A stretch of 64,000 bases of DNA from Gemmatimonadetes bacterium SCN 70-22 (GTDB lineage: Bacteria; Gemmatimonadota; Gemmatimonadetes; Gemmatimonadales; Gemmatimonadaceae), in the NCBI GenBank assembly GCA_001724275.1, contig MEDZ01000006.1:62001-126000 (forward strand), written 5' to 3'. Positions 45,045-59,638 of this stretch are shown one piece after another; position 1 is the first letter of the stretch, and every line of letters starts with the position of its first letter. Position numbers and translations under genes: made by a program. The notes under the pieces were generated by a model. It had not been told where the DNA came from. It ran no database searches and saw nothing but the letters and a program-made list of their open reading frames with translations.

Positions 45045-47540
45045 TCACTCGTACCGCAGGGCCCGCATCGGGTCGACCTTCGACGCGCGGAGTGCCGGGA
45101 GATAGCCGGCCCCGAGCGCGACGACGGCCAGCAGGAGCGCGCCGCCCACGACCGCGAAGGGGTCGAAGCCCTGCACGCCATACAGGAGCGACTGCGCCCC
45201 GCGCCCGACCGCGACGGCCCCGGCGATGCCGATCACGCCGCCAATGGCCAGCATGACCGCGACCTGCCGCAGGACCATCCCACGCACCATCCCGGCGTCG
45301 GCCCCTAGCGCCATGCGCACCCCGATCTCACGCGTGCGCTGGGCCACGGTGTAGGCCAGCACGCCGTACAGCCCCACCGCCGCCAGCAGCGTGGCGAGGG
45401 CGGCAAAGGCGGCCGAGAGCGTCCCGAGCATGCGATCCAGGAAGACGTTCTCCTTCACCTGCTGCGGGAGCGTCTTGAGCTCCTCGACCGGGAGGTTGGG
45501 GTCGAGGCGGGCCAGGAGCGGCGGGATGCTGCGCAGGAGCTGCTCCGGCGCCATTGCCGTCCTGACGTAGAAGTACATGTTCCCCACCGTCGAGTCCTGG
45601 CGCCAGGGGATGAAGAACTGCGGGGGAACGGCCCGCTTCACGTCGCTGTACTTGGCGTCCTTGATGAGTCCCACGATCTCGATCTCGAGCGGCCCTTCGC
45701 CCTCGGTCGAGATGTGCTTCCCCACCACGTCGCGCCCCATGTTGAACTTGCGCGCGAACGCCTCGTTGACGACCGCGACCTGCGGCGCCCCCCTGCCGTC
45801 GGCCACGGTGAACTCGCGCCCGGCCAGGAGCGGGATGCCTAACGCCGAGAGGTAGCCGGCGCCGACTTCGTTGAAGCGGGCATTGGTGTCGGTGTCGGGA
45901 TCGGCCTGGAAGCCCTCGACGCGCATGTCGGTCCCCCAGTTGTCGCCCGAGAGGATCGGGACGCGGGCCGACGACACCGCGGTGACCCCCGGCAGCCCCG
46001 AGAGCTCCTCCTCGACCCGGTTGAAGAGCGTGGCCGAGCGGGCGGGCGCGTAGCCGTTGAGCCGCGGCGAAATGGCGAAGGTGACGACGTTGTCCGCCTT
46101 CACGCCCAGCTCGACCCGCGCGATGTTGGCCAGCGACCGGATGAACAGCCCCGCGGCCACCAGGAGCGCCATCGAGAGGGCGATCTGCGCCGTGACCAGC
46201 GATGACCGGAAGCGCGCGGCCGACTTGTGCGAGGAGAGGTTGCCGGCGTTCGAGCGGATGGTCGTGACCAGGTCGGAGCGCGTGGAGTGGAGGGCCGGAA
46301 AGAGCCCGAACAGCACGCCGGTCGCCAGCGACGTCGCGGCGGCGAAGACGACGACGCCGGTATCCAGGGAGAGGACGAGCGTTCGTGTCGCCGCGGGCGG
46401 GAGCATCGACGCGATCGCGGTCAGCGTCCACTGGGCGACGATGACGGAGACGACGCCCCCCATCACCGCCAGCAGCACCGACTCCGTCAGCAGCTGACGG
46501 AGCAGCTGCCAGCGTGCCGCGCCGATGGACAGCCGCACCGCCATCTCCATGGAACGGTTGGCGGCCCGTGCCAGGAGGAGGTTGGCGATGTTCGCGCACG
46601 CGATCAGGAGGACGATCGCCGTGATCCCCATGAGCATGAAGAGCGGCGTGCGCGATTCCGTGTGGATGGTGCTCTGGCCGCGCGCCCCGGGGGCCAGCAC
46701 GAGCTCACGCGCCTTGAAGCGCGCCATGGTCGCGTCGCTCATCCCCTGCTGCTGCGGCGCCTCGACGTCGGTGATGATGGGCTTGTAGATGCTGTTGAGT
46801 CCCTGGGCGGCCTGCGCGAGGTCGACGCCGGGCTTGAGTCGCCCGAAGGCGTACACCCAGTAGGAACTCCGGCGCTCGTAGTCGTCGCGCGGCCCGGAGA
46901 GCAGCCCCCGCATGGTGATGGGGACGAAGACGTGGGGCTCGATACCGAGCGTGGTCCCCGTGAACCCCTCGGGGGCGATGCCGATGATGGTGAGGGCCTG
47001 CCCGTTGACGGTGATGACCTCGTTGAGGACCGACGGGTCGCTCCCCAGCTGTGTCTCCCAGTACTGGTGGCTGAGGACGGCGAGCGGGTGCGCGCCGATG
47101 ATCTCGTCGTCATTGGGGCCGATGAGTCGCCCGCGCGCGGCCGAGATCCCCAGCGTCGAGAAGTACGATCCGGAGACGAACATCCCGTTGCCGTTCAGCG
47201 TCTGGTTCCGGAAGGCGACATTGGCGGTGAAGCCCCGGTGGGCGGCCAACCCGGCAAGGACCGTCTGTCGCTGCTCCAGGTCGCGGAACATGGGATACGA
47301 CAGGACCTGCTCGCAGTCGCCGGCCTGGCTGCAACTCGTGCGTCCCGGCTTGGGTCCCGGCGCCGAGAGGTTCACCAGCCGGCTCGCCTCGCGCACCGGG
47401 AGATTGCGCAGGAGCATCTGGTTGAACAGGGAGAAGATCGCGGCGTTGGCGCCGATCCCGAGCGCCAGCGAGATGACGGCGACGGCGGTGACGAACGGCG
47501 ACTTGGCGAGCGTGCGGAAGGCGTACCGTATCGTGTGCAT
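45045..47540 (-). CDS. ADOP-family (MacB/FtsX-like) ABC transporter permease, orphan
   Basis: An 831-aa inner-membrane protein with duplicated FtsX/MacB permease halves. The N-terminal helix and MacB-PCD start read MHTIRYAFRTLAKSPFVTAV...SLALGIGANAAIFSLF. The first FtsX part contains LMGITAIVLLIACANIANLLLARA. A second periplasmic part contains VVNEAFARKFN and VGLIKDAKYSD. The last FtsX part is LLAAVGLYGVLAYTVAQRTREIGVRMALG, ending PALRASKVDPMRALRYE. This is the acidobacterial duplicated orphan permease layout. No ATP-binding subunit is encoded nearby, as usual for the family. ATG 47540 begins the family signature. Substrate unknown. Confidence 0.92.
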   Translation of the reverse strand: MHTIRYAFRTLAKSPFVTAVAVISLALGIGANAAIFSLFNQMLLRNLPVREASRLVNLSAPGPKPGRTSCSQAGDCEQVLSYPMFRDLEQRQTVLAGLAAHRGFTANVAFRNQTLNGNGMFVSGSYFSTLGISAARGRLIGPNDDEIIGAHPLAVLSHQYWETQLGSDPSVLNEVITVNGQALTIIGIAPEGFTGTTLGIEPHVFVPITMRGLLSGPRDDYERRSSYWVYAFGRLKPGVDLAQAAQGLNSIYKPIITDVEAPQQQGMSDATMARFKARELVLAPGARGQSTIHTESRTPLFMLMGITAIVLLIACANIANLLLARAANRSMEMAVRLSIGAARWQLLRQLLTESVLLAVMGGVVSVIVAQWTLTAIASMLPPAATRTLVLSLDTGVVVFAAATSLATGVLFGLFPALHSTRSDLVTTIRSNAGNLSSHKSAARFRSSLVTAQIALSMALLVAAGLFIRSLANIARVELGVKADNVVTFAISPRLNGYAPARSATLFNRVEEELSGLPGVTAVSSARVPILSGDNWGTDMRVEGFQADPDTDTNARFNEVGAGYLSALGIPLLAGREFTVADGRGAPQVAVVNEAFARKFNMGRDVVGKHISTEGEGPLEIEIVGLIKDAKYSDVKRAVPPQFFIPWRQDSTVGNMYFYVRTAMAPEQLLRSIPPLLARLDPNLPVEELKTLPQQVKENVFLDRMLGTLSAAFAALATLLAAVGLYGVLAYTVAQRTREIGVRMALGADAGMVRGMVLRQVAVMLAIGGVIGIAGAVAVGRGAQSLLYGVQGFDPFAVVGGALLLAVVALGAGYLPALRASKVDPMRALRYE

Positions 47541-47726
47541 GTCGCACTCTGCTGGGGATGGCCGGAGGGACGACGTCCAGCGCCTTGGACAGCGTACGAA
47601 CGCCAAGGGGTTTCGTTTCAGGGTGCGCCTCGCCAAGCGCCCGGGGGCCCGACACTATAGGAGTGGCGCAGGCCGGCGCCTGTGTGCGCCTCCACTCCCG
47701 TCCTCCGTCCCCAGGTCATTCGACCC

Positions 47727-48158
47727 ATGCCCGACATCGTCCACGACTTCCCGGTTGGCGCGCCAGCCGCCCGCGTCTTCGACATGTTCACGACCTCGGC
47801 CGGCCTCGACACCTGGTGGACCGCCCGCTCGAGCGGGACGCCGTCGTTAGGCGCGGAGTATCACCTCTGGTTCGCCCCCGAGCACGACTGGCGCGCCCGC
47901 GTCACGGCCTGCGATCCCGGGCGCCGCTTCGAGCTCGAGGTGACGCGCGCCATGGATGACTGGTTGGGGACGCGCGTGCGCGCAGAGCTCGAGGAGCACT
48001 CCGGTATCACCACGGTCCGCTTCGCCCATCTCGGCTGGCGCGAAGCCAGCGAGCACTTCAGGATTTCGTCGTTCTGCTGGGCCATGTACCTCCGGTTGCT
48101 GCGGCTGTATCTCGAGGAGGGGGTGGTGGTGGAGTATGCGCGGCGGCTGACGGTGTAG
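47727..48158 (+). CDS. SRPBCC (START-like/AHSA1-type) domain protein
   Basis: A 143-aa single-domain protein. IVHDFPVGAPAARVFDMFTTSAGLDTWWT is the canonical opening of polyketide-cyclase/AHSA1 proteins, and TTVRFAHLGW followed by the long C-terminal helix (SFCWAMYLRLLRLYLEEG) completes the helix-grip fold. The family binds hydrophobic ligands or assists a chaperone; nothing here indicates which. The ATG sits at the domain start. Its TAG runs directly into a G-rich 14-bp repeat array. Confidence 0.87.
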   Translation: MPDIVHDFPVGAPAARVFDMFTTSAGLDTWWTARSSGTPSLGAEYHLWFAPEHDWRARVTACDPGRRFELEVTRAMDDWLGTRVRAELEEHSGITTVRFAHLGWREASEHFRISSFCWAMYLRLLRLYLEEGVVVEYARRLTV

Positions 48159-48213
48159 GGCGGGATACGCAGGGCGGGAGGCGCCGGGCGGGAGACGCCG
48201 GGCGGGAGGCGCG
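48158..48213 (+). repeat. G-rich tandem array, four 14-bp units
   Basis: Units GGGCGGGATACGCA, GGGCGGGAGGCGCC, GGGCGGGAGACGCC and GGGCGGGAGGCGCG follow one another from the SRPBCC stop codon. Paired GGG tracts in every unit give G-quadruplex potential on the plus strand, about 160 bp before the NHL protein start. Confidence 0.8.
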
Positions 48214-48374
48214 AGTCGGGAGACAGGACCGGTGGCGCGTGGTGCGCCGCCAGCGGCGGGTGGATAGCGTTGCCGGAAGGGTGAGCGTATGCTATCGGCG
48301 GCGGACACCCGGTGTTCCGCCGAACGCACACGTATCCAACGGGCGCCAGCGCGCCGGAACACCAGGAGGGGAGC

Positions 48375-49484
48375 TTGGCTCGTCGTCAGGATCGCGTGCG
48401 CCGCGCGGCGCGCGCTGGAGGGCGCGTCGCCACTTTGCTGCTGGCGGTGCCGTTGGCGGTGCCGTTGGCGGTGGCCGGGGCGCAGCAGGGTGCGGCGCCG
48501 GTGAACGATCGCCCCAACCCGTACAAGACCGAGGTGGGATGGGCTCGCATGCCCGAGGGGCGCACATGGGGGTCGACCAGCGCGGTCGACATCGATCCCG
48601 ACGGCGTGAGCGTCTGGGTGGGCGAGCGTTGCGGCGCCAATACGTGCGTCGGGTCGAATCTCGACCCGATCCTCAAGTTCGACGCGACCGGATCGCTGGT
48701 CAAAAGCTTCGGTGCGGGCCTGGTCATGTGGCCGCACGGGATCCATGTCGACCGCCAGGGGAACGTCTGGGTGACCGACGGGCTGGACAACCGCCCACGC
48801 CGCCCGCGCGGCGCCCCGCCCGACGCCCCCCTCCCCCCTGCGCCTGCGATGGTCGCGGGGCACCAGGTCCACAAGTTCTCGCCCGAGGGCAAGCTCCTCA
48901 TGTCGCTCGGCGATCCGGGGGGCGGGCATGACGCCCGGTACTTCTGGCAACCCAACGACGTCCTGGTGGCGCCCGACGGGAGCATCTTCGTGGCCGAGGG
49001 GCACGGCGGCGACAATGCGCGCATCCTCAAGTTTGCGCCTGACGGTAAGTTCCTGAGGGCGTGGGGGAAGAAGGGGACCGGCAGGGGAGAGTTCGACCAG
49101 CCGCATGCGCTGGCCATGGATTCGCGGGGGCGTCTCTTCGTCGCCGATCGCTCGAACAACCGCATCCAGATCTTCGACCAGGAGGGGACCTTCCTGGACG
49201 CGTGGTACCAGTTCTCGCGCGTCAGCGGGCTCTGGATCGACGCCGACGACACGCTCTACGCCGCCGACTCCGAGTCCGGGTCGATCGATCCCTCGCGCAA
49301 GGCGTGGCTGCGCGGCATCCGCATCGGGAGCGCGAAGGACGGGAGCGTGCGGTACTTCATCCCGGATCCGGATGTGGACTCACGGAACACGAGCGCCGCC
49401 GAGGGCGTGGCCGTGGACCGGAACGGCGTGATCTACGGGGCGGAGGTGGGGCCGCGGGCGCTGAAGCGGTATGTGAGGAAGTAG
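48375..49484 (+). CDS. Secreted NHL-repeat beta-propeller protein
   Basis: About 369 aa. The signal peptide contains a DNA-level repeat giving AVPLAVPLAVAG. The mature protein is a six-bladed NHL propeller with blades DPILKFDATGSLVKSFG, GIHVDRQGNVWVTDG, HKFSPEGKLLMSLGDPG, LVAPDGSIFVAEGHGG, FDQPHALAMDSRGRLFVADR and GVAVDRNGVIYGAEVG, the pattern of peptidyl-alpha-hydroxyglycine lyase-like proteins. Two Cys (ERCGANTC) may form a disulfide. The probable start is TTG 48375, placed 5 nt after AGGAGG; longer in-frame starts have no ribosome site. A related protein is encoded at 53920 on the other side of the PQQ dehydrogenase, suggesting a shared role. The reaction, if any, is unknown. Confidence 0.83.
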   Translation: MARRQDRVRRAARAGGRVATLLLAVPLAVPLAVAGAQQGAAPVNDRPNPYKTEVGWARMPEGRTWGSTSAVDIDPDGVSVWVGERCGANTCVGSNLDPILKFDATGSLVKSFGAGLVMWPHGIHVDRQGNVWVTDGLDNRPRRPRGAPPDAPLPPAPAMVAGHQVHKFSPEGKLLMSLGDPGGGHDARYFWQPNDVLVAPDGSIFVAEGHGGDNARILKFAPDGKFLRAWGKKGTGRGEFDQPHALAMDSRGRLFVADRSNNRIQIFDQEGTFLDAWYQFSRVSGLWIDADDTLYAADSESGSIDPSRKAWLRGIRIGSAKDGSVRYFIPDPDVDSRNTSAAEGVAVDRNGVIYGAEVGPRALKRYVRK

Positions 49485-49493
49485 GTGGGAGTC

Positions 49494-49526
49494 GGGAGAC
49501 GGGGGACGGGGGACGGGGGACGGGAG
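49494..49526 (+). repeat. G-rich 7-bp tandem array after the NHL gene
   Basis: GGGAGAC followed by three GGGGGAC units and a partial GGGAG begin 10 bp past the stop. It has G-quadruplex potential on the plus strand. Confidence 0.8.
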
Positions 49527-49573
49527 TGCGCGCGTGTGGCCGCGCGCTGACCGGCGCGCAGGCACCGAGACAC

Positions 49574-49601
49574 GCAAACGGCGCCCAGAGGCGCCGTTTG
49601 C
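49574..49601. terminator. Perfect hairpin, bidirectional terminator
   Basis: A 12-bp stem GCAAACGGCGCC (49574-49585) pairs with GGCGCCGTTTGC (49590-49601) around CAGA. It lies between the stops of the convergent NHL and PQQ dehydrogenase genes. A short A-tract on one arm and T-tract on the other suit either direction. Confidence 0.75.
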
Positions 49602-49631
49602 ACTCCCGTCTCCCAACGCCCGTCTCGCCAC

Positions 49632-51836
49632 TCACCTCCGCAGCGCCAGCGCCGTCAGCGTGGTCGACGATCCGGCCCCGGAGGCGAAGACGATGTACTG
49701 CCGCCCCTTGTGCATGAAGGTCATCGGGAGCGCGGTGGTCTTGGCCGGAATGCGCACCGCGCCGACCTGCTTGCCGGTCGCCTTGTCGACGGCGAACAGC
49801 TGCGGCGGCTGGCCGGGGACGCCGCCATTGCGCCCCGTACCGTAGATGAGGAGCGTCTTCGTCGTGATGATCTGCGCCTGCCCCCGCGCCCCCTGCGGCG
49901 GGAGCGACACGCCGGCGAAGAGCGGGTCCTTGCTGCTGACGGGTACCATCCCGCCGTTGGGGATCCACCACTTCCTGTCGCCGGTGTTCAGGTCGTAGGC
50001 GGTGATCCCGCCGAATTCCCTGGGCTTGGCGATCGACACGCCCCCGATGAGCGAGGCGCCGGCGCGTGACGAGAATCCCTCCCCCTGCAGGTCCTTGCGC
50101 GGCGTGTACCCCGCGGGGGTCGGGAGCGCCCCGGGAAGGCCGCAGCTGTCGTGCGGCGACGAGTAGTTGAACTCCGAGCACGGGTCCTTCTGCAGGGAGA
50201 TGGTGCTCAGCCCCGTCTGCGATCCGACGTACACCATCCCCGTCTCCGGGTCGACCGCGACGCCGCCGTCGATGTTCACCCCGCCCGACGCGCCAGGGGC
50301 GTACCACGAGCAGGTGAGCCCGCTCGTGCCACCGTCGATGGGCTGCCCCGGGATGTAGTACGCGCCCATGCGGCACTTCCGGGCCAGCGTGAGCGCCGAG
50401 TCCCTGATGGCCGGCGTGTAGTCGATCAGGTCGCGCTCCATCAATCCCTGCTGGCTGTACGGCGCCGGCCTGGTGGGAATCGGCTGCGTGGGCCACGCCT
50501 CCTCCCCCGGGACCTCGCTCGCCATCACCGGGGTCTCGACGATGGGCCAGACGGGCTCTCCCGTCTCGCGGTCGAGCACGTAGAGCCACCCCTGCTTGGT
50601 GGCCTGGGCGACGATCCTGCGCCGCCTCCCGTCGACGGTGACGTCCAGCACGTTAGGCGCGATGGGGGTGTCGTAGTCCCAGATGTCGTGGTGCACGAAC
50701 TGGTAGTGCCACTTGCGCTTCCCGGTCCTGGCGTCGATCGCGACCAGCGAGTTGCCGAAGAGGTTCGCCCCGGGACGATGGCCGCCGTATTCGTCCATGA
50801 GCGGCATCCCGGTGGGGACGTAGACGAGGCCGAGCTCGGGGTCCGACGCCCACGTCGCCCACGGGTCCACCTTGCCGACCCCCGGCGTCCCGGGCTTCGT
50901 CCCATGCTTCCACGTCTCGGCGCCGAACTCGCCCGGCTGCGGGATGAGGTTGAACTTCCACAGCTGCGTCCCGGTGCGCACGTCGAAGCCGCGCACGAAG
51001 CCGTGGATGTTCCTGAGGCGGATCGGGTAATAGCCGTGGATCGACGAGTTCCCGAGGACGATCACGTCGCCCATGATCACCGCCGGGCTGCTGTTGGCGA
51101 TTTGTCCCTCGCTGGGGTCGATGCCGGTGGTGCCGTCGGCGCCCGTCTTCGTCGCCTCGTTCCACCGTTCGCCCGGCCTGGCCTTGCGCGCGGGGGCCGC
51201 GTCGGAGATGATGAGCGGTCCCGAGTCGTCGACGGCCAGCGGCACGATCGGGTAGCCGAGTCCCTCCATGAGGTCGACGACCCCGTTCTTCCCGAACCGG
51301 GGGTCGGGAAGCCCGGTCTTCGCGTCGAGCGAGGCGAGGTGGTAGCCCGGCGTGATCACGATGACGCGCTCCTCCTTTCCGTCGGTCCAGTACGCGAGCC
51401 CCCGACCGGCGAACTGTCGCGGCGCCTTCTGCCAGCGGATCCCCTCGTCCATGCGCCACATCCACAGCGTCTCGCCCGTCTCCGGATCGATGGCGGTGGC
51501 GATGCGGCGCGTGGTGGCCACGGTGAAGAGGCGCCCGTTCGCGTAGAGCGGGGTCGTGCGGTAGTACTCGTCGGCGCCGAAGGGGGCCGCGTTCCACGTC
51601 CACGCCACCTTGAGCGAGTCGAAGTTGCGGGCGTTCACCTGGTCGAGCGACGAGTAGCGCGTCCCCCACGCGTCCCCGGCCCAGTACCGCCACTCCCCCG
51701 GCACGTTGCCGCGGACCAGCGACTGCCCCTGCGAGGCGCTCGAGGTGGCGACGCGGGCGAGCGAGGCGGCGACCAGCGCCGCCGCCAGTACGGCCGTCGT
51801 CCCTAACGAGCGCCGGGTGGTCCATCGTTGCGTCAT
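49632..51836 (-). CDS. PQQ-dependent dehydrogenase (membrane glucose dehydrogenase-like propeller)
   Basis: A 734-aa periplasmic quinoprotein with an N-terminal signal (TTAVLAAALVAASLA). The eight-bladed propeller is marked by tryptophan-docking motifs such as AIDPETGETLWMWRMD, AIDARTGKRKWHYQFVHHDIWDYDT (the HHD-x-W-D region of mGDH-type enzymes), YVLDRETGEPVW, AVDPETGMVYVGS and AYDLNTGDRKWWIPNGG. The family oxidises sugars or alcohols with PQQ and passes electrons to a quinone or cytochrome. There is no membrane anchor domain like that of mGDH. No fused haem is present either; the HupE-cytochrome c fusion just upstream in the same operon (45 bp) could accept the electrons. PQQ biosynthesis genes are not in the window. 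Confidence 0.9.
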   Translation of the reverse strand: MTQRWTTRRSLGTTAVLAAALVAASLARVATSSASQGQSLVRGNVPGEWRYWAGDAWGTRYSSLDQVNARNFDSLKVAWTWNAAPFGADEYYRTTPLYANGRLFTVATTRRIATAIDPETGETLWMWRMDEGIRWQKAPRQFAGRGLAYWTDGKEERVIVITPGYHLASLDAKTGLPDPRFGKNGVVDLMEGLGYPIVPLAVDDSGPLIISDAAPARKARPGERWNEATKTGADGTTGIDPSEGQIANSSPAVIMGDVIVLGNSSIHGYYPIRLRNIHGFVRGFDVRTGTQLWKFNLIPQPGEFGAETWKHGTKPGTPGVGKVDPWATWASDPELGLVYVPTGMPLMDEYGGHRPGANLFGNSLVAIDARTGKRKWHYQFVHHDIWDYDTPIAPNVLDVTVDGRRRRIVAQATKQGWLYVLDRETGEPVWPIVETPVMASEVPGEEAWPTQPIPTRPAPYSQQGLMERDLIDYTPAIRDSALTLARKCRMGAYYIPGQPIDGGTSGLTCSWYAPGASGGVNIDGGVAVDPETGMVYVGSQTGLSTISLQKDPCSEFNYSSPHDSCGLPGALPTPAGYTPRKDLQGEGFSSRAGASLIGGVSIAKPREFGGITAYDLNTGDRKWWIPNGGMVPVSSKDPLFAGVSLPPQGARGQAQIITTKTLLIYGTGRNGGVPGQPPQLFAVDKATGKQVGAVRIPAKTTALPMTFMHKGRQYIVFASGAGSSTTLTALALRR

Positions 51837-51881
51837 GGTGGTCTCGATCCTCGCGCGGTGGGGGAAGGGTGGGCGGCGCCG

Positions 51882-53654
51882 TCAGCGCCCGCTGGTCTCG
51901 ATCCGGATGCGCCTGGCGGCGACGGTGTCCGCCGGGAGCTCCTCGTCGCCCGCCGGGAGGCCGTTGAGCATGAGGATGTACGCCGTCACCGCCGCGTACT
52001 CGTCGCTCGTCAGGCTTCCCGGGCTGTTCTTGGGCATCTTCTCGGTCATGAAGGCGAGCAGTTCGGAGAGGCGCCTGCCCTCCCAGGCGTTCCGGAACGT
52101 CACCCCGGTGTGCGAGGCCGGCGTGTGGCACTCGCGGCACGTCCCGACGTAGATGTCCTTCCCGCGTGCCGCCTGGGCATCGGTGTACACCCCCGACAGC
52201 GTCGAGCGCACCTCCTCGCCCGCCTGCGCGTGGGCGGTGGCGGCGGCGCCGGCCAGGGCGATGGCGAGGGCGAGCACGGCGAGCGTCCCGCCGGCCGGGC
52301 GCGATGGCGTCCGCGCCAGGCGGGCGACCACGATCGACACCCCCCAGAGCACGGCGACGATGATCAGCAGGAGCATCAGGGTACGCATCAGGGCGACGGC
52401 CAGCGTCACGTCGAGCGCGGGCCAGGTGAAGCGGTATGCGCGCAGCACGGCGAACCGTGCCGTCATCCAGTGCCAGCTTTCGTGGGCCACCAGGGCCGAG
52501 AGCACGATCACGCCCAGCCGCTCGGCGACCACGCGGCTCAAGATCCATGCAAGGAGCGGGATGGCAAGGGCGATGACCAGCAGCTGCCCCAGCTCCACGC
52601 CGACGTTGAAGGCGAGGAGCGAGGTCACGAGATGGCGCCCCGCGAACTGGAGCGAGTCGCGCAGGGCGAAGGAGAAGCCGAAGCCGTGCACCAGCCCGAA
52701 GCCGAAGGCCACGAGCCACCGACGGTCGAGGCGCGCCCCGGCGATGTTCTCGAGCGCCATGGCGACGATCGAGGCGGCGATCAGGAACTCGATGAGGGGG
52801 GGAAACCACCCAGCGCCGGGCGCCATGCCTAACGCGGATGCGAGCAGGGTGATGGAATGCGCCGCCGTGAAGGCGGTCACGACCCCGGCCAATGGGCGCA
52901 GCCGCCGGATCGGGATGACGAGGCAGAGGAGGAACAGGAGGTGATCGAGCCCCCCCAGGATGTGCTCGAACCCCAGCGCCACGAAACGCCCCGCCGCCTG
53001 CCACGCGCCCGGATCGAGGGGGACCAGCCCCGGGTTCCCCTCGTACTGGAAGGCGCGCTCGCTTCCGTCGGGCATCGCCCAGCGCAACACGGTGGAGGTC
53101 GTGACGCCCAGGTGGGCCAGCAGGGGGCGTACCGAGAAGCGCGAGTGGGGCGAGGCGATGGGATAGGCGAGGACCACGTCCATCATCGCCTGGCGCCACG
53201 GGAGCTCCGTCTCGTTGGGGAGTGGCGGGGACGACGCCCCGGCCACGGCGCAGTCGAACGACTCGAAGCTGCGGTCCGACGGCAGGGCGATGCGCGCCGC
53301 GACGATGCGCCCGCCGGTGAGGCGGCGGCCGCCCTCGTACAGCTCGAGGTAGCCCAGGATCCACAGCGTCGCGGCCTCGTGCAGGCGCGGGGTCACGCGC
53401 GCGATGTCGAGGTAGTCGCCGCGGATGAGCGGGATGTCGACGTCGCGCACCGCCTCGAGCGGGACCCTGACGACGAGGCGCAGCTGCGTGCTGTCGGCCC
53501 GCGCGATCAGCTGCACCGTCGCCCGGGGCGGGACCTCGTGCCCCCATCCCGGGGCCGACCGGGCCAGCAGGAGGAGGATGAGCGCAAGGAGCGGGCGCCA
53601 CGCGCGCGCCGCGCGCGGGTGCGCGCGTTGCACGAGCGTGTGCGGCGGCGCCAT
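51882..53654 (-). CDS. HupE/UreJ family membrane protein fused to a cytochrome c
   Basis: About 590 aa. A signal and a periplasmic beta domain come first (about 40-200: VRVPLEAVRDVDIPLIRGDY). The HupE/UreJ-type membrane region follows (about 220-480), with GFEHILGGLDHLLFLLCLV, FTAAHSITLLAS, GFGLVHGFGFSFAL and VAHESWHWM, rich in conserved His typical of this presumed metal-handling family. After one more helix comes a mono-haem cytochrome c (CRECH near residue 505, EKMPKNSPGSL with the distal Met). The cytochrome domain resembles the free cytochrome at 42365. Transcribed just ahead of the PQQ dehydrogenase, it may anchor or accept electrons from it; the HupE part may move a metal (inference). 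ATG 53654 or GTG 53657; no ribosome site is obvious. Confidence 0.83.
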   Translation of the reverse strand: MAPPHTLVQRAHPRAARAWRPLLALILLLLARSAPGWGHEVPPRATVQLIARADSTQLRLVVRVPLEAVRDVDIPLIRGDYLDIARVTPRLHEAATLWILGYLELYEGGRRLTGGRIVAARIALPSDRSFESFDCAVAGASSPPLPNETELPWRQAMMDVVLAYPIASPHSRFSVRPLLAHLGVTTSTVLRWAMPDGSERAFQYEGNPGLVPLDPGAWQAAGRFVALGFEHILGGLDHLLFLLCLVIPIRRLRPLAGVVTAFTAAHSITLLASALGMAPGAGWFPPLIEFLIAASIVAMALENIAGARLDRRWLVAFGFGLVHGFGFSFALRDSLQFAGRHLVTSLLAFNVGVELGQLLVIALAIPLLAWILSRVVAERLGVIVLSALVAHESWHWMTARFAVLRAYRFTWPALDVTLAVALMRTLMLLLIIVAVLWGVSIVVARLARTPSRPAGGTLAVLALAIALAGAAATAHAQAGEEVRSTLSGVYTDAQAARGKDIYVGTCRECHTPASHTGVTFRNAWEGRRLSELLAFMTEKMPKNSPGSLTSDEYAAVTAYILMLNGLPAGDEELPADTVAARRIRIETSGR

Positions 53655-53738
53655 CACGGGAGGGTGGGGGCGATGGGGGAGGTGCGCATCACGACTGTAC
53701 GGACACGCCGCTTTGGATGCTGGCTGCGGTCACGGATC

Positions 53739-53815
53739 GGGTGCGAATCGGGTGCGGGACGGGTGCGGGCCGGGTGCGGGACGGGTGCGGGACGGGTGCG
53801 GGACGGGTGCTGGAC
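53739..53815 (+). repeat. Seven 11-bp G-rich units between divergent genes, G-quadruplex potential
   Basis: GGGTGCGGGAC is repeated with the first, third and seventh units slightly changed (GGGTGCGAATC, GGGTGCGGGCC, GGGTGCTGGAC). GGG tracts with 2-3 nt loops on the plus strand form a textbook quadruplex pattern. It lies between the HupE-cytochrome start (53654) and the NHL gene start (53920). Confidence 0.85.
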
Positions 53816-53919
53816 GGGAGGCGGAACGCGACGGTAGTATGGTCGCCGCACGCCGCGCCGACGAGACCAGCGCCCCCCTTTCGCGCGGGAATGGGGCCGT
53901 TCCCCGGGATTGGACGTCC

Positions 53920-55101
53920 ATGACGCGTTCGCGGAAGCTCCTGGCCGCCACGGCCCTCGTGGCCACGATTGCCGCCCTCGGCGTGGGGCAGCGTGCCCTG
54001 CAGGGTGCCGCCCAGGGAAGGGGGGCGCAGGCCCCCGCCTTCGAGGTCGACCCGTTCTGGCCGCAGCCGCTGCCTAACCATTGGGTGATGGGCTCGGTGA
54101 TCGGGGTCGGCGTCGACGCGCGTGACCACGTCTTCATCGTGCACCGCCAGCAGACGCTCAACCAGCGGACCGAGGTGCTGACGGGAGAGGCGGCGAAGAG
54201 CGGGGACTGCTGCGTGGCCGCACCTCCCGTTCTCGAGTTCGCCCCTGACGGCAAGCTGGTCAACGCCTGGGGCGGAGCGGGGGAGGGGTACACCTGGCCC
54301 GCGTCGAACCACGGCATCTCGATCGACCACAAGGACAACGTGTGGATCGGCGGCAACGGGCAGGGCGATTCGCACATCCTCAAGTTCACCCACGACGGGA
54401 AGTTCCTGCAGCAGATCGGGATCCCCGGGAAGGGCGCCAACAGCACGGCGACGGAGCACTTCGGGCGCGTCGCCAAGATCTCGTTCGACGTCGGCGCCAA
54501 CGAGGCGTATGTCTCCGACGGGTACGGCAACAAGCGCGTGGCGGTGCTCGACATGAACACCGGCGCCATCAAGCGCTACTGGGGCGCCTACGGCAACACG
54601 CCGAGCGACAGCAACCTCGGTCCGTACGATCCGGATGCGCCGCTGGCGCAGCAGTTCCGCAACCCCGTGCACTGCGCGGAGCCCAGCACCGACGGGCTCG
54701 TGTACGTCTGCGACCGGCCTAACGATCGCATCCAGGTGTTCCGGACGGACGGGAAGTTCGTGAAGGAGGCGCGCATCGCCCCTCGCACCCTGGGCGACGG
54801 CTCGGTCTGGGACATCGCCTTCTCGAAGGACCGGGACCAGAAGTACCTCTACCTGGCCGACGGGAAGAACGAGAAGGTCTACGTCATCGAGCGGCAGTCG
54901 CTCGAGGTCCTCACCAGCTTCGGTGACGGCGGCCGCCAACCCGGGCAGTTCTTCGCCGTACACAGCATCGCGACCGACTCGAAGGGGAACATCTACACGA
55001 CGGAGACCTACGAGGGGAAGCGGCTGCAGAAGTTCGTGTACAAGGGACTGGCCCCCGTGACGGCGAGGAATCGGGGCGTCCCCTGGCCGGGACGCCGCTG
55101 A
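53920..55101 (+). CDS. Secreted NHL-repeat beta-propeller protein, second copy
   Basis: A 393-aa protein. The N-terminal signal is KLLAATALVATIAALGVGQ. Propeller blades are GVGVDARDHVFIVHR, LEFAPDGKLVNAWGGAGEG, GISIDHKDNVWIGGNG, ILKFTHDGKFLQQIG, YVSDGYGNKRVAVLD, YVCDRPNDRIQVFRTDGKF and SIATDSKGNIYTTETYEGKR. A Cys pair sits in GDCCVA. It is related in architecture to the protein at 48375 and belongs with the PQQ/cytochrome island, from whose operon it diverges. ATG 53920 opens the signal peptide; an in-frame ATG at 53839 is less likely. No catalytic residues can be named. Confidence 0.87.
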   Translation: MTRSRKLLAATALVATIAALGVGQRALQGAAQGRGAQAPAFEVDPFWPQPLPNHWVMGSVIGVGVDARDHVFIVHRQQTLNQRTEVLTGEAAKSGDCCVAAPPVLEFAPDGKLVNAWGGAGEGYTWPASNHGISIDHKDNVWIGGNGQGDSHILKFTHDGKFLQQIGIPGKGANSTATEHFGRVAKISFDVGANEAYVSDGYGNKRVAVLDMNTGAIKRYWGAYGNTPSDSNLGPYDPDAPLAQQFRNPVHCAEPSTDGLVYVCDRPNDRIQVFRTDGKFVKEARIAPRTLGDGSVWDIAFSKDRDQKYLYLADGKNEKVYVIERQSLEVLTSFGDGGRQPGQFFAVHSIATDSKGNIYTTETYEGKRLQKFVYKGLAPVTARNRGVPWPGRR

Positions 55102-58600: not shown

Positions 58601-59638
58601 CGCTCGCTGCTCGAGCGGGTCGCCCATGGCACGCTTCGCTCGGCGCAGCCGCCCCAGCGCCGCCAGCGCGGTGAGCGTCGCGATGAACGGGAGCCCCATG
58701 TAGATCGCCAGGTACCGTCCGCCTCGCAGCAGGCGGATCCGCAGGCTCACGCGCGGTGGCGCCTGCGGCGCCACGCGCACCCTGGCCCTTGATGTCTCCT
58801 GAGCGGTTCCGGCGACGACTGGCGCGCCGCCGATCGTGGCGGGCGCCGTCGAAGGAGGACTGGTCACTGGCGCGGGAGCCTGCCCGAGAGTCGGCGCCGG
58901 TGCCTGCGCCGGTGCCTGCGCCGGTGCCTGCGCCGGTGCCTGCGCCGGTGCCTGCGCCGGTGCCTGCGCCGGTGCCTGCGCCGGTGCTTGCGAGGGGACC
59001 TGCGCCGTGGGCGCGGGACGCGGGGGGCGCCCCCGGGCGCGTACGCGTTCGGCCTGCGGCGTGAACCCCATGACCAGCGTCACCACCGAGAGGATGAGGG
59101 CGCTCCCCGCGATCATCCCGGTCGGCCTGATCCACCAGGTCGCGGCATCGGGGCGCGCGGCCGGGCGCGAAAGGGTCCCCGACACGAGGCGCCCGAGGGC
59201 GGCCGTGACCCAGTCCCAGTGCATCGCCAGGTGCACGCCCACCATCACCAGCATCGCGTCGGACGAGACCGAGTGCATCCTGCTCCAGAACCGGTCGGGG
59301 CGGTGCGCGATCCCCATCTGCGGGAGCGCGACCTCGGAGACCACGACCCCCGAGACCATCACGACGGCCAGCGTGGCGTAGAGGAGGAGGTCCCACACGT
59401 AGTTGAAGCGCACCTCACCGCGAAGCGGGGCCACGATGCGCCGCGTGACATTGACGATCCAGTTCCAGCTGAACAGGAGGTGGAGCGCCACGATCAGGCA
59501 GAAGGCGAACGACCACCATTCGTGGAGGGCAATTCGCGTCACGGCGGGGAGCGAGAGCGCGACGAACGAGATGGCCAGCGCGGTGTTGACGACGAGCTTG
59601 GCGCGTACGGATCCGGCGCGTGGTCCGGGGGGTGTCAT
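58595..59638 (-). CDS. DUF4405 cytochrome b-like membrane protein with (PAQA)n linker
   Basis: A 347-aa protein. The first half has four helices with paired His: IALHEWWSFAFCLIVALHLLFSWNW and MHSVSSDAMLVMVGVHLAMHWDW, the DUF4405 layout thought to bind haem b. A fifth hydrophobic segment precedes a periplasmic low-complexity stretch of (PAQA) repeats, then a Pro/Thr-rich linker and a final helix (YLAIYMGLPFIATLTALAALG). The His spacing suggests a quinol- or cytochrome-linked haem protein (inference). The repeat stretch is perfect at DNA level. The start ATG is at the family's N-terminal helix. Confidence 0.78.
   Translation of the reverse strand: MTPPGPRAGSVRAKLVVNTALAISFVALSLPAVTRIALHEWWSFAFCLIVALHLLFSWNWIVNVTRRIVAPLRGEVRFNYVWDLLLYATLAVVMVSGVVVSEVALPQMGIAHRPDRFWSRMHSVSSDAMLVMVGVHLAMHWDWVTAALGRLVSGTLSRPAARPDAATWWIRPTGMIAGSALILSVVTLVMGFTPQAERVRARGRPPRPAPTAQVPSQAPAQAPAQAPAQAPAQAPAQAPAQAPAQAPAPTLGQAPAPVTSPPSTAPATIGGAPVVAGTAQETSRARVRVAPQAPPRVSLRIRLLRGGRYLAIYMGLPFIATLTALAALGRLRRAKRAMGDPLEQRAA
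58894..58989 (-). repeat. Eight in-frame 12-bp units encoding PAQA
   Basis: GCGCCGGTGCCT is repeated almost perfectly eight times within the DUF4405 gene. Units are in frame, so copy-number change alters linker length without a frameshift. Confidence 0.85.

Follow-up and report, generated by a model that had tools for sequence, protein, structure and literature searches.

We analysed a stretch of 64,000 nucleotides from Gemmatimonadetes bacterium SCN 70-22 (contig MEDZ01000006.1, positions 62,001 to 126,000 of the forward strand; hereafter the window, numbered from its first letter), whose source genome is 99.98% complete. This work deals with a group of four genes in the window, built around a HupE-type permease fused to a cytochrome c. 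An initial annotation had placed the gene of this fusion and that of a pyrroloquinoline quinone (PQQ) dehydrogenase-like protein, here PQQDH, 45 bp apart on the minus strand, with two genes for NHL propellers flanking them on the plus strand, and had proposed that together they form a quinoprotein respiratory module. Open reading frames and domain searches confirmed the four genes, their positions and their arrangement. The fusion is encoded by a single frame at 51882-53657 (minus strand; PF13795 HupE_UreJ_2, E 1e-42, above the gathering score, and PF13442, E 2e-8), and PQQDH, a soluble PQQ-dehydrogenase-like propeller, at 49632-51836 (minus strand; PF01011, E 9e-154). NHL1, a secreted propeller that has six blades and belongs to the PAL superfamily (48312-49484, plus strand; PF01436, E 1e-19), converges on PQQDH. 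NHL2, a predicted periplasmic PAL-like propeller (approximately 53920-55101, plus strand; NHL repeat, E 1e-8), diverges from HupE, with which it shares a promoter region at 53658-53919, delimited by the gene coordinates and the aligned NHL2 start. The longest NHL2 frame spans 53425-55101, but the alignment places the start at approximately 53920 and indicates that 53425 is too early.

The linkage of these genes was determined by searching 298 Gemmatimonadota genomes with HupE, PQQDH and NHL2 and by counting only pairs found on one contig. The distance between HupE and NHL2 was at most 2.3 kb in 99/99 cases, 98 of which were head to head, and in 48/48 cases PQQDH came after HupE, no more than 12 kb away and in the same orientation; such an arrangement is not due to chance. 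The HupE and PQQDH genes are thus regular companions, as the initial annotation had presumed, and rare co-occurrence is refuted. As for the NHL genes, the presumed linkage held for NHL2 and was only partial for NHL1, a variable member of the module whose orthologue is found near HupE in approximately half of the family relatives. In twenty 20-kb neighbourhoods, the cytochrome c and PQQDH genes move together, at times apart from HupE (L041 and L044), and other families of the phylum keep HupE and NHL2 without cytochrome c and PQQDH.

We extended the comparison to 80 named loci picked by HupE similarity, a sample that covers this HupE subfamily only and in which 73 loci were testable. NHL2 lies within 4 kb of HupE in 67 of these 73 loci (Gemmatimonadota, 18/18; Acidobacteriota, 22/28; Pseudomonadota, 24/24; others, 3/3), but PQQDH orthologues are present in only 11 of the named loci. 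HupE and NHL2 are therefore the ancient core of the module, and cytochrome c and PQQDH are mainly an addition of the Gemmatimonadaceae. More distant PQQ-dehydrogenase homologues near HupE (six of seven being from Acidobacteriota) were left out of the linkage counts because relatives carry up to dozens of copies, making chance neighbours likely. The HupE/NHL2 pairing is found in many soil, lake and sea bacteria. The contig of one locus (L109), labelled Bordetella parapertussis, is a metagenome-assembled genome contig, and its organism name is doubtful.

The conserved partner of HupE, NHL2, resembles the peptide-amidating lyase PAL, which completes peptide hormones in animals. In its AlphaFold2 (AF2) model (predicted local distance difference test score, pLDDT, 92), both Foldseek and VIA-align retrieved PAL (3fvz) as the top match in the PDB, with a Z-score of 33.0 over 295 residues. 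The PAL site comprises three His metal ligands together with Tyr654, Arg533 and Arg706. In an hhalign alignment, PAL R533, H585, Y654, R706 and H786 correspond to NHL2 R69, H124, Y195, R259 and H341 (counted from window base 53941), and PAL H690 falls one residue from the invariant H244. Across 50 relatives belonging to several phyla, each of these NHL2 residues is either invariant or conserved to at least 90%. Thus, NHL2 shares with PAL the six-bladed propeller and equivalents of all six active-site residues, that of H690 with a one-residue shift. It differs from PAL in that it is bacterial, separate from a monooxygenase and paired with a permease, and the two are approximately 23-25% identical. 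From the conserved site and the model, we infer a PAL-type lyase activity for NHL2. NHL1 also matches PAL 3fvz (E 3e-24), and its residues R106, H142, H231, H265, R280 and E364 are invariant in 26 relatives. It has a His at the position of Y654 and, as judged by eye, a Glu at that of H786, the rest of the site being PAL-like. The NHL proteins had initially been proposed to act on or to bind the substrate. Both look like PAL-type enzymes, which favours the first possibility over mere substrate binding; the tightest pair of the module is that of HupE and NHL2.

In the fusion protein, the HupE part (52326-53657, minus strand) comprises a signal peptide of 39 residues, a predicted mature N-terminus at His40, an Ang-like beta-sandwich at approximately residues 41-216 and a membrane domain (PF13795 at residues 225-373). 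His40 is invariant in 19 sequences, and an H[DE][IV]P motif is present in 104 of 115 HupE relatives; its His is preceded by Ala in 89 of them and by Gly in the window. The AF2 model has a pLDDT above 90 for most of residues 41-410. Its beta-sandwich (residues 43-216) has the copper-bound Ang-1 domain of RbAng-1a (9gce) as its best PDB match, with a Z-score of 11.0 and a root mean square deviation of 3.2 over 138 residues, and Foldseek also found this match (E 7e-5). A sequence profile search with HupE returned no solved relative, and the likeness to Ang-1 is seen by fold only. Further fold matches of the membrane part (Z-scores of 7-10) were taken as uninformative.

Anglerases are HupE/UreJ-2 proteins whose N-terminal His binds copper with a Kd of 74 nM and nickel with a Kd of 220 nM, and the Ang domain has been suggested to deliver the metal to the permease (PMC12537917, Nat Commun 2025). 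HupE shares with them a secreted N-terminal His, a periplasmic beta-sandwich domain and a PF13795 permease, but its sequence is too distant for profile detection, and in Gemmatimonadaceae it is fused to a cytochrome. Whereas Ang-1 has been described mainly in Pseudomonadota, the HupE subfamily studied here is also widespread in Gemmatimonadota and Acidobacteriota. The neighbourhood survey, in the parts of PMC12537917 consulted, lists genes of unknown function, DUF4198, indigoidine-A-like and PfkB genes, and mentions neither NHL nor lyase genes; a PAL-like partner gene beside HupE is thus absent from that portion of the account. By its modelled fold, the N-terminal-His domain of HupE probably captures copper or nickel in the periplasm. 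The metal-related role initially attributed to HupE is thereby supported.

The fusion of HupE with cytochrome c was found in 18 of 115 HupE sequences, every one from Gemmatimonadaceae. In the window, the cytochrome part (51882-52325, minus strand; CRECH and MPK motifs, PF13442 at residues 494-561) comes right after an internal signal peptide whose end reads ATAHA|Q. A hydrophobic stretch ending in A-Q right before the cytochrome, resembling an old signal peptide, is kept in 18/18 fusions. The fusion is a recent one, and, since this cleavage site is retained at the joint, the protein may well be cleaved into two after membrane insertion. There is a precedent in the post-translational cleavage of FbcH (cytochrome b/c1) in Bradyrhizobium. 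Alternatively, the fusion might act as a single protein, with the cytochrome tethered to the permease, in line with the uninterrupted frame in all 18 sequences and with a tree in which one fused clade is not rejected (approximately unbiased, AU, test, p 0.61). We nevertheless find a tethered cytochrome doubtful: most relatives possessing HupE as well as cytochrome c encode them in separate adjacent genes, and the signal-peptidase-like site and the FbcH precedent argue for two proteins. The same observations weaken the initial idea of a fusion that links the supply of metal with the acceptance of electrons. A first tree suggested three separate fusion events; given the AU result, repeated fusion is not claimed.

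A different companion of HupE was found in seven gammaproteobacterial loci. There, HupE is immediately followed, on its own strand, by a gene whose product combines domains of a redoxin, of a cytochrome c (CxxCH) and of a copper monooxygenase resembling PHM (L068:11351-13123, L083:11485-14951, L097:11412-13115 and others), often in two to three copies per locus. The Cu2_monoox_C profile matched above the gathering score in two of the seven PHM-like proteins scanned. The HH, H, HMH and M positions, which by their motifs we take to be the copper ligands of PHM, are kept in at least 15 of 16 sequences. These partners thus share Cu2_monoox_C and six copper-ligand-like residues with the copper type II monooxygenases PHM and DBM, from which they differ in being fused to a redoxin and a cytochrome c domain. 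Genes for CstA, penicillin amidase and amidohydrolase lie nearby. With PHM-like proteins in gammaproteobacteria and a PQQDH-like protein here, both lineages have a cytochrome-linked oxidising enzyme after HupE.

In other phyla, the region between HupE and NHL2 also carries a palindromic element. This palindrome, AGTATACT, was counted 28 times within HupE/NHL2 intergenic regions and at no other place in the 85 loci concerned. Its doublet, AGTATACT-N15-AGTATACT, has exactly one site per genome in seven of seven gammaproteobacterial whole genomes, always between HupE and NHL2 (L068, L073, L082, L083, L094, L097 and L100), and its spacer is not conserved. The element may represent an operator or else a set of overlapping -10 boxes. 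The corresponding promoter region of the window contains an 11-bp GC-rich tandem repeat of 7.4 copies (53738-53818).

Compared with E. coli Gcd, the PQQDH-like protein retains R266, W404, D466 and D468 (WDYD) and K493, and D387 is its catalytic Asp, within WDYD. However, at Gcd E217, D354 and T424, which are PQQ/metal contacts, all 22 orthologous sequences have R, H and L, respectively, whereas 20 PQQ-family proteins of PqqC-bearing relatives keep E217 in 16 cases and D or E at 354 in 18. Positions 262 and 607 were excluded, as their counterparts differ from one alignment to another. Thus, PQQDH shares the PF01011 propeller, the catalytic Asp pair and Lys493 with Gcd and PQQ-dependent dehydrogenases but has an altered site and no membrane anchor domain, its alignment to Gcd beginning after that domain and a signal peptide standing instead. 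No haem motif was found in it either. PqqC was detected in 34 of the 298 genomes, namely in none of the 56 that carry a close orthologue of PQQDH vs 34 of the 242 others (Fisher's exact test ignoring kinship, p 8e-4). In the genome of the window itself, a profile search did not find PqqC and gave only matches below the cut-off for PqqE. PQQ auxotrophy is therefore probable. Four PQQ-family paralogues encoded in this genome have retained D or E at position 354 (L167 on C50, L168 on C9, L169 on C2 and L170 at C6:22234), which indicates that the altered site is peculiar to the PQQDH of the module and that the organism may scavenge PQQ. As scavenging is possible, missing PQQ synthesis genes alone are not decisive against PQQDH function. 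We also considered acido-empty-quinoprotein group A (TIGR04528), which we take to comprise PQQ-dehydrogenase homologues of bacteria without PQQ synthesis. PQQDH scored 204.7 bits against a cut-off of 650 and belongs to a different group.

These observations bear on the simplest alternative, an ordinary quinoprotein chain in which PQQDH would use environmental PQQ to oxidise a sugar or alcohol and pass electrons to cytochrome c, metal supply and substrate binding being the roles of HupE and the NHL proteins. It would account for the cohesion of cytochrome c and PQQDH away from HupE in L041 and L044, for the retained WDYD, Trp404, Arg266 and Lys493 equivalents, and for paralogues that point to a possible PQQ scavenger. 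We consider it unlikely on account of the three replaced contacts, the lack of PqqC among carriers and the fact that in most phyla HupE and NHL2 occur with no close PQQDH. The initial proposal is upheld in so far as the genes form a single conserved periplasmic module, with a gene for cytochrome c alongside that for PQQDH, but not the term 'quinoprotein' in its usual sense; a quinoprotein respiratory module is possible if PQQDH uses scavenged PQQ in its altered site. PMC9426454 lists gcd as a quinone reductase in more than half of the genomes. As the orthologues described here lack PQQ/metal-site residues and reside in genomes without PqqC, Gemmatimonadota 'gcd' genes should not be counted as PQQ glucose dehydrogenases.

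Our preferred interpretation, to which we give somewhat less than an even chance, is that the genes of the window are the Gemmatimonadaceae version of a widespread periplasmic module for metal-dependent oxidation and lyase chemistry, reminiscent of PAM (PHM and PAL), organised around a permease of the anglerase type and a propeller resembling PAL. The genes present and their linkage, the folds predicted for their products, the conserved sites and the operator are shown here and speak for it, and a cytochrome c accompanies the oxidising enzyme in both versions of the module. We infer the reactions, their substrate, the identity of the metal, the direction of electron flow and the cleavage of the fusion. 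In the core, the anglerase-type HupE would capture copper or nickel, and the PAL-like NHL2 is encoded head to head with it. The accessory slot 3' of HupE is filled by a cytochrome-c-linked oxidising enzyme, redoxin-cytochrome-PHM-like in some gammaproteobacteria and cytochrome c with a PQQDH-like protein in the window. This enzyme would generate a hydroxylated, carbinolamide-like product in the periplasm, with electrons travelling via cytochrome c, and the metal-dependent propeller would then split that product, as PHM and then PAL do in animal PAM, the permease meanwhile capturing metal.

Several points weigh against such a module. TRIM-type NHL domains match the NHL2 fold nearly as well as PAL does (Z-scores of 31-32 vs 33.0) and score above PAL by sequence profile, and the PAL case for NHL2 therefore rests on its residues. 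The palindrome AGTATACT is not present in the window. No PHM-like protein (PF03712) was found in the genome of the window, so that the oxidation step would fall to the PQQDH-like protein with its uncertain cofactor. Transport by the permease would be directed inwards and would not obviously bring metal to periplasmic enzymes.

Another possibility is metal acquisition, in which cytochrome c, with the PQQDH-like protein, would reduce a metal, Cu(II) or another, that the anglerase HupE then takes up, and the propeller would bind metal or degrade a metal-binding ligand; the recurrent coupling of cytochrome c and HupE, fusion included, the match of the N-terminal-His domain to a copper domain and the dedicated palindromic operator between HupE and NHL2 are in its favour, but we regard it as unlikely, slightly more so than a quinoprotein chain, given that the six PAL site residues of NHL2 suggest catalysis over binding, that PHM-like enzymes occupy the same slot and that most relatives have HupE without a cytochrome.

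The periplasmic oxidation/lyase module could be taken further, as a bacterial counterpart of animal PAM performing periplasmic oxidation and PAL-type cleavage of amides or peptides, with a copper-capturing permease and a dedicated operator. In Gemmatimonadaceae, a PQQDH-like enzyme would replace the copper monooxygenase, its calcium/lanthanide site turned into a His-containing transition-metal site. We deem this fuller version improbable. Literature searches found no described HupE/PAL/PQQ system or bacterial PHM-PAL system, and our analysis points to a so far undescribed oxidation system outside the inner membrane. It gives anglerase permeases and bacterial PAL-like propellers, both poorly understood, a neighbourhood partner and a testable function. 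It also suggests that bacteria may have a module for PHM and PAL chemistry, which is familiar from the amidation of peptide hormones.

Two other features lie near the module. An ADOP-type MacB/FtsX-like permease is encoded beside it (45045-47636) and, among the neighbourhoods examined, is kept only in a relative of the same genus (L034). A 12-bp repeat of 9.5 copies (58894-59007) encodes an Ala-Gln-Ala-Pro tract within a DUF4405 membrane protein.

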